Assembly (NCBI RefSeq): GCF_000827125.1
Contig: NZ_CP010311.1
Location: 2,625,001 to 2,689,000 of the forward strand
Length of the DNA stretch: 64,000 nt
Direction of reading: 5' to 3'
DNA from: Geoalkalibacter subterraneus
GTDB taxonomy: Bacteria > Desulfobacterota > Desulfuromonadia > Desulfuromonadales > Geoalkalibacteraceae
The translations under genes were made by a program, and so were the position numbers. Under the pieces are notes generated by a model. It had not been told where the DNA came from. It worked only from the letters and a program-made list of their open reading frames with translations, and searched no databases. Shown piece by piece: positions 23,559 through 32,530 of this stretch; position 1 is the first letter of the stretch; the number at the start of each line of letters is the position of its first letter.

Positions 23559-25970
23559 TTATCCGTTCTTCTCGTCCCCTTTGCCGAACTTGTGCAGCGT
23601 TTCGGCCATTTTCAGCAGGCGCTGATCGACCTTTTGATTGATGGTGCTCTCCGGCCACTTTCCGTCACTGTCCCGTTCGCCGGCAGGCATGCCGGTGAGA
23701 ATTTCGATCCCCTCGTCCACGGTCTCCACCGCCCAGATGTAGAAATCGCCTTTTTCCACAGCCTCTCGCACGTCGCGATCGAGCATCAGGCTTTTGAGAT
23801 TTGAACGGGGAATAATGACCCCCTGCTCGCCTGTCAAGCCCTTGACCTTGCACACAGCGTAATAGCCCTCGATCTTTTCGTTGACACCGCCGATGGGCTG
23901 CACCTTGCCATGCTGGTTGACGGATCCGGTGACCGCGATCCCCTGCTTGATGGGGACATCTGCCAGAGAGGAAAGCAAGGCGTAGAGTTCAGCGCAGGAA
24001 GCGCTGTCCCCTTCAACGCCGGTATAGGACTGCTCAAAGCAGATGGATGCAGAGAGGGCTAATGGCTTGTCCTGGGCGAAGCGCTCGCCGAAGAAACCGG
24101 TGAGGATCATCACGCCCTTGTCGTGAATCGGGCCGGATAGTTTGGCCTCGCGTTCGATATTGACCATCGAACCTTTGCCCAGATAGGTGCGCACCGTCAG
24201 GCGTGACGGCTTGCCGAAGGAATAGTCGCCGAGCTGATAAACAGATAGCCCGTTAATCTGCCCTGTCATTTCGCCTTCCGTGTCCACCAGCAGGGTGCCG
24301 TCTTCAATCAGTTCCTGAATTTTCTCTTCGATCTTGTTGCAGCGGTAGACGCGCGCTTCGATCGCCAGATCAACATGCTTTGAGCCAACCCGGTCGCACC
24401 CCTCCTTTTCCGCGTAGTGAGCTGCTTCCCGAATAAGATTGGCGATTTCGAGAAAACAGGAGGAGAACTTGCCCTGATCCTCGCTCAGGCGTGCGGAATG
24501 CTCGATAGTGCGCGCGACAGCCTGACGATCGAAATGCAGCAGGTCTTCATCGGTGCATTTCGCGCCAATGAAAAGGGCGTACTGCTGGGTGTTCTCCCAG
24601 GTATTTCTCATCATCCGGTCGAAGTCGGCCTTGACTTTGAAAAATTTGCGAAAATCCGGATCATACTGAAACAACAGATAGTACAGCAGTGGTGTGCCGA
24701 TCAGGATGATCTTGCAGGATAGAGGAACCGGACGCGGCTTGAGAGTGACCGTGGCCAGAAACCGGAACTGCTCCGTCATATCCTCGATCTTGACTTCCTT
24801 GTTGCGGATGCAGCGCTTGAGCGCCTCGTAGGAGAACAGGTTGATCAGCACTTCACGGCAGTCCAGGATAAGGTAGCCGCCGTTGGCGCGATGCAAGGCG
24901 CCGGGCTTGATCATGGTGAAATTGGTTGAGGCGTTGCCCATCTGGATGACATGCTCGACACGGCCGAACAGGTTGAAGTAAGTCGGGTTGGCTTCATAGA
25001 CGACAGGCGCGCCTTCGAGTTGGTGATTGTCGACAAACAGATTGACCAGGTAGCGCTCAAAAGATGGCCCCTGCTCCGGCATCTTCATACCCGGCAGCGC
25101 AATCTGCGGCCCCTTGTTGGGTCGTAATTCCTCGATACGCCCCAAGATGTCCTTCTTGCAGTTTTTAAAATGCTCCAGCACCCGCTCCTGATCAGCGTAC
25201 TTTTTCTCCAGTTCCTCAAAAAGCGGCTCCATGCCGTAATTGACGACCTCTTTTTCCATCTCGGCCGTTTCCCGCCGTGCCTGCTCTTCGAGTTTTCGCA
25301 CTTCACGCAGGGTGTCGTTGAGATTGTTCTGTAGAGCCGTGCCGCGCTCGTCAAGTTCAGCCTTTTCCTGGTCGGAGAGTTCTTCGTATTCCTCCTGCGA
25401 AAGGGGGTGCCCCTCCTTCACCGGGACCAGGACCAGGCCGCTGACGGTGCGCTGCAGCATGAATCCTTTTTCCTCGGCCTGATGCTCCAGCTCCTGAAAC
25501 AGTGCCTTATGCTTTTCCTGATGTTCCGAGGAAATCTTGTTCTTCTGCTCTTCGTACTCCTTGCTTTCAAAGACTTTCGGGATCTCTTCCGTCAGACGCT
25601 CCACCAGGCGGTCGACATCCTTCTTGAGCTCCTGCCCTTTTCCGGCCGGAAGGCGGATATAATCGGGGCGGGTCCCATCCTCGAAATCATGCACATAGCA
25701 CCAGTCGTCAGGAACGGGCTGCCCTTTGGAGCGACTGTTGAGTATTTTTTTGATAGAAGACGAGCGGCCGGTGCCCGGTTCTCCAAGGATAAAGATGTTG
25801 AACCCGCTGTCCTTGATGCCAAGACCGAAATCGATGGCCGTCAACGCCCGATCCTGGCCGATGGTCCCTTCAAGGGGGGGCAATTCTCGGGTGGTCTCAA
25901 ATTCGAACTGATTCGGATCGCAATGCCAGGTCAACGCCTGGGGATCAAGTCGCAGATGCTCAATGGACAT
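23559..25970 (-). CDS. Lon-like (LonB-type) ATP-dependent protease
   Basis: An 803-residue relative of Lon with an AAA (AAA_32-like) region and C-terminal Lon protease domain. Ser-Lys dyad motifs are clear: EGDSASCAELYALLSSLA and GSVNQHGKVQPIGGVNEKIEGYY. A coiled-coil stretch of about 110 charged residues (about 160-285) is inserted in the ATPase part. The P-loop reads GEPGTGRSS, with Arg in place of the Walker A lysine, so ATP hydrolysis may be altered or absent. It is followed downstream by mlaE, 78 bp away, but is probably functionally separate. Confidence 0.88.
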   Translation of the reverse strand: MSIEHLRLDPQALTWHCDPNQFEFETTRELPPLEGTIGQDRALTAIDFGLGIKDSGFNIFILGEPGTGRSSSIKKILNSRSKGQPVPDDWCYVHDFEDGTRPDYIRLPAGKGQELKKDVDRLVERLTEEIPKVFESKEYEEQKNKISSEHQEKHKALFQELEHQAEEKGFMLQRTVSGLVLVPVKEGHPLSQEEYEELSDQEKAELDERGTALQNNLNDTLREVRKLEEQARRETAEMEKEVVNYGMEPLFEELEKKYADQERVLEHFKNCKKDILGRIEELRPNKGPQIALPGMKMPEQGPSFERYLVNLFVDNHQLEGAPVVYEANPTYFNLFGRVEHVIQMGNASTNFTMIKPGALHRANGGYLILDCREVLINLFSYEALKRCIRNKEVKIEDMTEQFRFLATVTLKPRPVPLSCKIILIGTPLLYYLLFQYDPDFRKFFKVKADFDRMMRNTWENTQQYALFIGAKCTDEDLLHFDRQAVARTIEHSARLSEDQGKFSSCFLEIANLIREAAHYAEKEGCDRVGSKHVDLAIEARVYRCNKIEEKIQELIEDGTLLVDTEGEMTGQINGLSVYQLGDYSFGKPSRLTVRTYLGKGSMVNIEREAKLSGPIHDKGVMILTGFFGERFAQDKPLALSASICFEQSYTGVEGDSASCAELYALLSSLADVPIKQGIAVTGSVNQHGKVQPIGGVNEKIEGYYAVCKVKGLTGEQGVIIPRSNLKSLMLDRDVREAVEKGDFYIWAVETVDEGIEILTGMPAGERDSDGKWPESTINQKVDQRLLKMAETLHKFGKGDEKNG

Positions 25971-26035
25971 GGAGATATCCTTCCCGAAATAAACATTAAA
26001 ACAGAGCGTTCACAAAGGGTTGTTTTCTTGGCCGC

Positions 26036-26481
26036 CTATTCGTCATCCCCTGTCGCCACGAGCGTGATAGGCGCCTCAAGATAGTCGCGCACGGTATTGA
26101 GAAAATCGGCGGCATCAGCGCCATCGAAGACACGGTGGTCGGCAGAGAGGGTCAGCCGCATGCGCGGGATAACCACAAGATCTCCCTGCCCGGCATCCGC
26201 CACCGGTTCATGCTGCACTGCGCCGACGGCCAGCGCGGCTGCCTGGGGCGGGGTGATGATCGCCGTAAAAGACTCTACACCCAGCATCCCCATGTTGGAA
26301 ACGGTAAAAGTCCCATCACTCATCTCTTCAGCCTTCAGGCGCCCCTGACGCGCTTTTTCAGCCAGGTCCCGCGCCCGGTCACCAATACCACGCACCGACA
26401 GCTCCGCACAATCACGGATGACGGGGCTGTAAAGGCCTTTTTCAGTGGCGACGGCAATTGCAGCATTTAAGCACAAACATC
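26036..26481 (-). pseudogene. Remnant of 2-oxoacid dehydrogenase E2 (C-terminal catalytic part)
   Basis: About 148 codons matching only the C-terminal half of a dihydrolipoamide acyltransferase catalytic domain: NAAIAVATEKGL, TFTVSNMGMLGVESFTAIITPP and the active-site segment SADHRVFDGADAADFL, ending properly at 26036. The lipoyl domain, the subunit-binding domain and the first half of the catalytic domain are missing. Upstream it runs directly, out of frame, into an E1-alpha fragment. Deletion of about 2-2.5 kb (rest of E1-alpha, E1-beta and most of E2) best explains this. An open frame from 26590 exists but its first 35 codons are E1-alpha DNA read in the wrong frame. Confidence 0.85.
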
Positions 26482-27027
26482 CCATCGACCTTAGAACCGG
26501 GAGTTTCATAGGCACAGCTTTTTTTATAGAGTTGATCCACAGCACTGGCACGACCCACGGCGGTTCCGATTCCATACATGTTGTTTTCACACACGAAGAC
26601 CACCGGCACGTTGTAAAGAGCCGCCATATTCATGGCTTCGTGAAAAACCCCTTGATTGGTGGCGCCATCACCGAAGAGGCACACCACCACCTCATCAGAT
26701 TCGCGGTACAGGATCGAATACCCCATACCGACCGCCAGAGGCAGATGCCCGCCGACGATGCCGTACCCTCCCATAAAACGAAGGTCGGCATCGAACATAT
26801 GCATGGACCCTCCCTTGCCCTGGCTGACACCGGTCTTTTTGCATGGCGTGGGCGACACCGACGCCGACAGCCTCCTGGCCGCTGTAAAGATGGAGAAATC
26901 CCCCCATCTTCCCTTGACTGTAGAGTTGCGGGCAGGCTTCCTCGAACTGCCGAATCCGCACCATGTCGCGATAAATCGCAAGAAGTTGATGACCCGACAG
27001 GGAAGCGGCCTCCTGCTTCTCTTTCAT
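26482..27027 (-). pseudogene. Remnant of 2-oxoacid dehydrogenase E1 alpha subunit
   Basis: From the ATG at 27027 about 64 codons match the E1-alpha N-terminus (YRDMVRIRQFEEACPQLY, LYSGQEAVGVGVAHAM). The match then jumps, near 26836, to another frame that continues KTGVSQGKGGSMHMFDADLRF, GGYGIVGGHLPLAVG, LFGDGATNQGVFHEAMNMAAL (thiamine diphosphate motif GDGA) and TPGSKVDGM. About 34 residues normally between these parts are missing, so there is an out-of-frame internal deletion. The gene then breaks off near 26481 where it meets the E2 remnant. It may be from a pyruvate or acetoin dehydrogenase; the fragments do not decide which. Confidence 0.88.
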
Positions 27028-27198
27028 AATTCATCCTTTCGCCGGCTTGGCGAACCAACTCGAGACATTGTCGATCATCTCTATATCATTGGGACTTTCG
27101 GTTAATGGTACCAAGGAAGTCCTGCTTGGCAAGAGGCGACCTTCTTCCTGAAAAAGAGAGATGAAGATATGGCTGGGGAAGGAAGAGCGCGGAGTCTG

Positions 27199-27236
27199 AA
27201 AAAAACGGGCCAACGTATTCTACCGTAGGCCCGTTT
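27199..27236 (-). terminator. Rho-independent terminator of the zinc-ribbon gene
   Basis: ACGGGCC (27205-27211) pairs with GGCCCGT (27228-27234), followed leftwards by a run of seven T on the minus strand. It isolates the zinc-ribbon gene from the decayed dehydrogenase genes. Confidence 0.85.
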
Positions 27237-27287
27237 CCGGTGAGCGTATAAAGTATGGCGAAGCTGCAAAACTGCCCTTAAACCAGA

Positions 27288-27443
27288 TCACCCGATATAG
27301 ACATTGTGGTTGCGGGCGCGGTTGGCCATGATGGTGGGGTCCAGCACTTCACCGCAGGAGCAGCACTTCCATGCTTCAAATGAACGAACGAAATCATAAA
27401 ACTTCTCGGTGTACATCCTTCCTTTGCATTTGGGACATTTCAT
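27288..27443 (-). CDS. Small zinc-ribbon protein (51 residues)
   Basis: A 51-residue protein. Two CxxC knuckles are present, C3-C6 (CPKC) and C27-C30 (CCSC), separated by YTEKFYDFVRSFEAW, so it should bind one zinc. The ATG at 27441-27443 follows AAGGGGG by 8 bp and the gene has its own strong terminator. Similar short proteins of the form MKCPKC...EKFYDFVRSF occur, in my memory, in other Desulfuromonadales, but the function is unknown. It could be a nucleic-acid-binding or regulatory protein. Confidence 0.75.
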   Translation of the reverse strand: MKCPKCKGRMYTEKFYDFVRSFEAWKCCSCGEVLDPTIMANRARNHNVYIG

Positions 27444-31126: not shown

Positions 31127-32530
31127 TTATCCGCGGTCGCGGCGGCGCCCGGCTTTGTGAACCGCCAGCCCGGCGACATCTTCCGCCGCTTCCATGATCA
31201 TTTCCGGCAGGGTGGGATGGGCATGAATCGTTTTCCCGCCGAGTTCATGCGCGCTCATTCCCGCGCCCATGGCAGCGGCCACTTCAGCGACCAGGCTTGA
31301 GGCCTCGGCGCCGACGATGGCAGCGCCGAGAATGGCGCCGTCTTTTTTATCGGCGACGATCTTGACCAGTCCCTGGGTTTCCCCCTCGCACTGTGCCTTG
31401 CTTGATGCCTGGTAGGAAAAGCGCCCGCTTTCCACCTCGATCCCCTGCTGTTTGGCCTGGTCTTCGGTCAAGCCGACCTGGCCAATCTCAGGCAGGGTGA
31501 AGATGGCGCTGGGAACGACCCGATAATCAGCTTTTTCATCGCCCCCCATGGCGTTGGCTACAGCGATTCCGGCCTGGTAGGAGGCTACATGTGCCAGTTG
31601 AATGATGTTGGTCGCATCGCCGATCGCGTAGACTCCAGGCACCGAAGTCCGCAACCCGTCATCGACAACAATGGCGCCGTCTTTTGTTTCAACTCCGGCA
31701 TCTTCAAGGCCGAGATTATCGATATTGGGAACACGGCCGACCGCAACCAGAACCTTTTCAGCCTCAACCTGCTTCTCGCCTGAGAGATAAGCCGTGACGA
31801 CGCCATCCTTGGCATCGAGGCGCTCTACCGAGGTTTCGGTATGAACTTGCACCCCCAGGGATTTAAAGGATTTTTCAACCTCCTTGACCACCTGGCGGTC
31901 GCTTTGTTCAAGCAGACCCGGGAGCTGTTCCACGACCGTGACTTTGGTCCCCAGGGCGGCGAAAATTCCGGCGAATTCGCAGCCGATATAACCGCCTCCG
32001 ACAACCATCAGGCTGGCGGGAAGTTCTTTAATAGCAAGGATTTCCCGGCTGGTCAAAACATTTTTCCCGTCTATCGACAGGGCTTTAGGGCGCACTGAAC
32101 GCGAGCCGGTAGCGATGATGATGTTTTTGGCCCGAATGCGCCCGGTGACTTCGGGTCGTTTGATGCAAATCCGCCCCGGCCCTTCAATCAGAGCGTGCCC
32201 ACGGAACAATTCAACCTTGTGCGCCTTGAGCAGCTGTTCAATCCCGCCGACCAGGCGCTTTACGATATTATCCCGCCGTTCAGCTGCCACGGTGTAATCG
32301 AGGGAGGGCTCATCGATCCGGATGCCGTGGTCTTCAGCATGTTTAAGGCGCTGCCAGAAATGCGCCGTGCTGTAAAGAGCCTTGGTGGGGATGCAACCAC
32401 GATTGAGGCAGGTGCCGCCAACCTTGTCTTTTTCGATCAGGCACACACAGGCGCCCTGCTGGGCGGCACGGATCGCAGCGACATATCCACCCGGGCCGGC
32501 ACCGATCACGGCAATATCGAATTCCTTCAT
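31127..32530 (-). CDS. lpdA: Dihydrolipoyl dehydrogenase
   Basis: FAD enzyme that reoxidises lipoyl groups in 2-oxoacid dehydrogenase and glycine-cleavage complexes. The 467 residues carry the FAD-binding [15 protein letters not shown], the redox-active disulfide [13 protein letters not shown], the NAD-binding [14 protein letters not shown], a second FAD motif (YAIGDAT) and the C-terminal active-site HAHPTLPE. It is intact even though the E1/E2 genes 4 kb away are wrecked, so it must serve another complex encoded elsewhere or lack a partner. Confidence 0.95.

Follow-up and report, generated by a model that had tools for sequence, protein, structure and literature searches.

The 64,000-nucleotide stretch of DNA analysed here (the window) comes from the oil-reservoir bacterium Geoalkalibacter subterraneus Red1, and positions 27027 to 26036 of its minus strand very probably hold a dead remnant of the pyruvate dehydrogenase operon pdhA-pdhB-pdhC, which two deletions have broken. 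The start and the middle of pdhA (E1-alpha) lie in two frames and are followed by the end of pdhC (E2) in a third. The features of the region are as follows.

23559..25970, minus strand: Lon-type protease gene (AAA_32, LonB lid, Lon_C), intact, directly downstream of the remnant, as in relatives
26036..26467, minus strand: pdhC (E2) remnant, last 143 codons (26467-26039) and stop (Pfam 2-oxoacid_dh, tblastn)
26464..26470, minus strand: deletion scar 2, where pdhA runs into pdhC in another frame (tblastn, alignment diagonals)
26466..26834, minus strand: pdhA middle, 123 codons in the second frame, including GDGATN (Pfam, tblastn, orthologue alignment)
26833..26840, minus strand: deletion scar 1 (alignment diagonals and overlapping fragments)
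26833..27027, minus strand: pdhA (E1-alpha) remnant, codons 1-65, in the frame of the intact gene's start (Pfam, tblastn, orthologue alignment)
27288..27443, minus strand: small open gene, 51 aa, two CxxC pairs, upstream of the remnant and conserved in relatives
31127..32530, minus strand: lpd (E3, dihydrolipoyl dehydrogenase), intact

Pfam models matched the three pieces, each in a frame of its own: E1_dh positions 1-46 (E 6.9e-07), E1_dh positions 71-201 (E 4.1e-38) and, for 2-oxoacid_dh, positions 97-231 of 232 (E 2e-49). Searches by tblastn with the intact PdhA, PdhB and PdhC of three genomes of the same family (G001, G003 and G004) returned the same three blocks, and no match to PdhB was found in 25900-27300. 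No in-frame stop occurs inside any of the pieces, the middle piece of pdhA carries GDGATN, which we take to be the thiamine-diphosphate motif, and SADHRVFDG is present in the pdhC remnant. The initial annotation had described E1-alpha in two frames and the C-terminal part of E2 in a third, with the rest of E1-alpha, all of E1-beta and most of E2 gone, and the Pfam and tblastn results agree with it on each of these points. A functional pyruvate dehydrogenase complex (TIGR03182-type E1) has a complete E1-alpha, an E1-beta, and an E2 with lipoyl, E3-binding and whole catalytic domains; the remnant locus has 188 of about 328-346 E1-alpha codons, split over two frames, no E1-beta, and an E2 of which 2-oxoacid_dh positions 1-96, the first 40 % of the catalytic domain, are missing. 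Judged by these missing parts, no working E1 or E2 could come from the remnant. Its disrupted frame and missing essential parts, together with the intact orthologues that relatives carry next to the same neighbour gene, are the marks of a pseudogene formed by deletion. The E1-alpha and E2 parts do stand head to tail with no gap, as they would in a real gene fusion of the two, but they occupy three different frames, and no intact homologue of such a fused form was seen among the matches listed for each half in 57 relatives, so that a fusion is extremely improbable. The 51-residue protein encoded upstream, found at 76-90 % identity in loci of relatives, is likely a zinc ribbon.

Aligned with the same-family genomes, the remnant fragments are collinear with two gaps. 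The first loss measures 95 bp (about 32 codons) within pdhA against each of four same-family genomes, as read from alignment diagonals, and shifts the frame because 95 is not a multiple of three; the loss that had been annotated near 26836 is thereby upheld, at a size slightly below the 34 residues first given. The second loss could be sized in three genomes only and comes to about 2,310 bp (G004), 2,390 bp (G003) and 2,424 bp (G001), that is about 2.31-2.42 kb, a spread that arises because the length of the E2 linker varies. It took the end of pdhA, all of pdhB and the first two thirds of pdhC, which cost E2 its lipoyl and E3-binding parts as well as the first 40 % of its catalytic domain. 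The third frame assigned to E2 was correct, and its joint, formerly put at about 26481, lies at about 26466. At scar 1 about 8 bp fit both arms and at scar 2 the arms overlap by about 2 bp, which suggests microhomology-type deletions. The comparison shows that the operon was broken by two deletions, one of 95 bp in pdhA and one of 2.3-2.4 kb running from pdhA into pdhC, whose joints have little homology or none; we infer their order and their mechanism, which may have been slippage or end joining at microhomology. The window's own genome was the only one of its genus in the comparison, so the deletions could be specific to the sequenced strain or culture.

An assembly or sequencing error, with an operon that is in reality intact and gaps that are artefacts, is very unlikely. 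The fragments are hardly eroded, as would be expected had nothing happened, but losses of 95 bp and 2.3-2.4 kb with clean joints are not the indels that PacBio and Illumina data of this kind usually leave, and therefore speak against such an error. A search of the genome for a second copy of the missing parts found none. The assembly is a finished one, built from PacBio reads at 250x and polished with Illumina reads at 100x (PMC4357744).

The operon is kept by four of the five same-family genomes. In G001, G003 and G004, pdhA, pdhB and pdhC are complete on one contig and lie directly upstream of the same lon-type gene, and in G005 (Geoalkalibacter sp. CSMAG_1185) the operon is split over two contigs. 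The fifth genome, G002, which is 81 % complete, gave no pdhA match and a best E2 match of only 39 %; either G. subterraneus is not alone in its family in this loss, or the G002 draft is incomplete. The operon of Geoalkalibacter ferrihydriticus Z-0531 (G003) has the same genes, order and lon-type neighbour, and the three blocks of the remnant align to its proteins; that of Desulfuromonas soudanensis WTL (G018) agrees with it in gene content, gene order and position upstream of that lon-type gene. Both are complete, whereas the window's operon is without pdhB and much of pdhA and pdhC. The intact pdhA-pdhB-pdhC cluster that the initial annotation proposed to look for in relatives is therefore present, beside the same lon-type gene. 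Of the genes that neighbour the remnant on its upstream side in the window (HHH, cimA and lysC), none turned up in G001, G003 or G004 within the 3.4-4.6 kb that was read ahead of pdhA. In the order-level relatives G013, G015, G016 and G049 the operon is flanked by the HHH gene and cimA on one side and by the lon-type gene on the other, and both flanks of the window are common only to order-level relatives such as these. A contig search with the lon-type protein returned four loci only, including that of G005; such a search may omit the genome that holds the window, or ones very close to it. A pdhA orthologue at 69 % identity or more is present in 14 of the 88 order genomes of at least 90 % completeness, the remnant not being counted. 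In the G016 draft the lipoyl domain and the core of E2 (L077 7775-9086) lie in different frames, and pdhA and pdhB match over their full length.

The surviving codons look as constrained as those of the intact orthologues. Where 14 intact orthologues are all invariant, the window differs at 0 of 32 positions (piece 1), 0 of 79 (piece 2) and 2 of 40 (piece 3), and the intact genes, each left out in turn, have 0-2, 0-4 and 0-9 changes, the maximum of 9 belonging to G025, without which the range for the third piece is 0-2. Taken together, the three pieces give a dN/dS of 0.054-0.083 against four family members (0.057-0.131 among those four), and the E2 piece alone gives 0.093-0.150 (0.086-0.182 among family members), values that are rough since synonymous sites are near saturation in the family comparison. 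Most of the divergence would have been gathered while the genes still worked, because the invariant-site and dN/dS values match those of intact genes. Constraint at this level points to a recent loss; the lack of any clear relaxation of selection fits that reading and would also fit an undetected function. As a clock, erosion gives no age, none above that of intact genes being measurable. The earlier view of a hardly eroded remnant, left by recent deletions of an operon that is intact in relatives, is in keeping with the synteny, the alignment diagonals, the invariant sites and the dN/dS values.

By family, the lost operon is predicted to have encoded a pyruvate dehydrogenase. The PdhA of G001 scores 455.1 bits against TIGR03182 (pyruvate dehydrogenase E1-alpha; cut-off 393.85), and its PdhB 441.3 bits against NF006667 (pyruvate dehydrogenase E1-beta subfamily; cut-off 321). 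Acetoin dehydrogenase was considered and rejected, as the E1-alpha and E1-beta of the intact orthologue pass the cut-offs of the pyruvate dehydrogenase models. The initial annotation had proposed the loss of a lipoyl-dependent pathway for pyruvate or acetoin oxidation; pyruvate stands, acetoin is unlikely on the TIGR03182 score, and loss of the lipoyl-dependent pathway as such is not supported by the genome. Intact in G. subterraneus are SucA (1235 bits, cut-off 764), SucB (518 bits, cut-off 449, with a Biotin_lipoyl domain) and Lpd (520 bits, cut-off 408.8), so that one lipoyl-dependent enzyme has been lost and lipoyl metabolism has not. Across the genome, E1_dh matches SucA and both pdhA fragments, and weakly a split transketolase; Transket_pyr has four matches, namely SucA, DXS, a transketolase and that split one; SucB is the only 2-oxoacid_dh besides the remnant; and no AceE exceeds the cut-off. 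These E1_dh, 2-oxoacid_dh, Transket_pyr and AceE scans revealed no rescue copy of the missing parts elsewhere in the genome. The split transketolase consists of two separate genes of 289 and 314 residues (G000:C1:599092-600406; L092 555-1424 and 1492-2436), and a full-length transketolase is encoded elsewhere in the genome.

A full pyruvate:ferredoxin oxidoreductase (1843.6 bits, 1201-residue frame) is encoded by G. subterraneus, and pyruvate oxidation is most likely now carried by this intact enzyme, which would have made the dehydrogenase complex dispensable. A pyruvate:ferredoxin oxidoreductase exceeds the cut-off in 53 of 58 genomes, that of G. subterraneus included, and the dehydrogenase is therefore one of two routes in the order.

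Several Desulfuromonadales without pdhA and pdhB keep an E2-like gene at the same slot (loci L082, L083 and L096-L104, and the orphan rows of L108-L137). In most of the loci read, this orphan E2 gene follows lysC, cimA and the HHH gene, and in some it precedes the lon-type gene (G010, G024 and G045); for G051, G012 and G021 no slot neighbours were found in the DNA read and the placement comes from the E2 sequence alone. One orphan E2 protein matches 75 of 200 class genomes at 1e-45, 45 of them in the order of G. subterraneus, and these 45 comprise 13 genomes with a pdhA orthologue at 69 % or more, the window's genome, and 31 without, nine of which have E1-alpha matches at 38-53 % elsewhere. 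Thirty loci were read with up to 1.5 kb before the match, less upstream DNA being seen where the E2 frame is long, and pdhB lies upstream in nine and is absent in 21, one of the latter being cut by a contig end. Eight further order genomes (G064, G075, G077, G078, G079, G080, G082 and G088) have an E2 match and no close pdhA, as seen by search.

A tree of 37 E2 rows forces at least four changes between the pdhABC and orphan states on well-supported branches, a smaller tree forces at least two for the orphans and three for the pdhABC type, and both states occur within genus g7 (G009, G055) and within genus g46 (G092 as against G089 and G090). We favour repeated loss of pdhAB over its return to the same slot, which is less probable. 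The trees are without G005, whose pdhC is split over two contigs, and the larger comparison is also without G025 (long branch), G062 (contig end) and G033; G016 is counted as pdhABC type although in the draft a break ahead of the lipoyl domain disrupts its E2 frame, and the 23 orphans do not include G040 (E2 broken in frame) or G030 (E2 runs off the contig). The comparison genomes are mostly drafts, start codons were chosen mechanically, and the orphan group is defined by sequence alone. The orphan E2 of G040 (L107 8775-9871) is broken in frame compared with that of G029 of the same genus, and is either a draft error or a fresh pseudogene.

The lipoyl motif is largely confined to the pdhABC type. 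With ETDKA taken as that motif, it is present in the E2 frame at eight of nine loci with pdhB upstream, the ninth being the broken draft frame of G016, and at one of 21 loci without pdhB upstream (G029). Over the wider set, 12 of 13 pdhABC-type proteins and two of 23 orphans (G029 and G055) retain the lipoyl lysine; among the other 21 orphans, nine have another residue at the aligned column, one of them (G010) uncertain because a lysine stands in the next column, and 12 have no lipoyl domain in frame. The core itself is conserved, with 46 of the 67 residues invariant in the 13 pdhABC-type proteins also invariant in all 23 orphans, the presumably catalytic His and Asp of DHRxxDG among them. Between orphan cores dN/dS is 0.048-0.073 in five near pairs and 0.134 for G010-G024, the seventh pair being saturated, and these values indicate purifying selection on the cores in the pairs measured.

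Whether an E1 partner remains differs among the orphan genomes. G010 and G012, both drafts rated 100 % complete, gave no AceE over the cut-off and no E1_dh match beyond a SucA-size frame and a weak one in a transketolase-sized frame, and seem to keep the E2 core without a pyruvate dehydrogenase E1. Nine orphan genomes (G021, G024, G029, G034, G035, G040, G045, G051 and G052) carry AceE or a relic of it, and other E1-alpha genes occur in many, so that in such genomes the core may act in trans; these genes, and the lipoyl lysine in G029 and G055, weaken the orphan reading. In those orphan frames that were scanned, no fused E1 was seen. In G034, G051, G012 and G035 (among L096, L099, L101 and L103) the opposite strand has a TRAP transporter DctM gene within 2 kb, a TAXI-type NMT1_3 gene lies near the orphan E2 on the opposite strand in L102, and a sensor-kinase-like gene overlaps the end of the G034 E2 on the same strand; neighbours differ among the loci read, and no single one stands out as a partner. 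In the G021 draft (L105 1-1400) an aceE-like end in a broken frame lies directly upstream of the orphan E2, followed by apparent pieces of an E2 lipoyl domain and E2 core, and this broken stretch is perhaps a second, independent pyruvate dehydrogenase remnant.

The E2 remnant of the window might itself be read as a functional orphan core of this kind. Relatives without pdhAB do keep an E2 core here under purifying selection, the E2 codons of the window are not eroded, and no working pdhA or pdhB stands upstream of them, pdhB being absent and pdhA broken; the remnant is in this respect like the orphans (G010, G024, G034, G051, G052 and others), which also miss pdhA and pdhB and keep E2. The orphans, however, have the whole catalytic domain, ten that were scanned being nearly whole with a profile start at positions 4-11, whereas the remnant is truncated and does not hold the domain whole in one frame. 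The first start of its open frame sits in out-of-frame pdhA sequence, the E2 part itself has its first in-frame start codon at 26395, and in the trees the remnant groups with the pdhABC type of its own family and not with an orphan lineage. A working orphan core in the window is accordingly most improbable, and the remnant is better regarded as the debris of the operon.

A precedent for a lipoyl-less E2 core acting in trans, relevant to the orphan cores and not to the remnant, is OdhA of Corynebacterium glutamicum, which is described as E1o fused to an E2 transferase domain without a lipoyl domain, whose core uses the lipoyl groups of another E2 in trans (PMC10581250). As so described, OdhA differs in being fused to E1 and part of a hybrid complex, unlike the orphan frames scanned. 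Among the titles and abstract openings listed in literature searches, no paper on the G. subterraneus remnant or on orphan E2 cores appeared.

There is about an even chance that the E2 core has repeatedly outlived the complex at this slot, serving as a free acyltransferase or a scaffold, with G. subterraneus a lineage in which the core broke too. The remnant itself is ordinary reductive evolution, and it corrects any expectation of an NAD-linked pyruvate dehydrogenase in this electrode-respiring type strain, pointing to a ferredoxin-linked route. The wider comparison matters more: in several families the E2 core is apparently kept by selection without a lipoyl arm or an E1 partner, and these orphan cores make the question of what an E2 core does alone directly testable.
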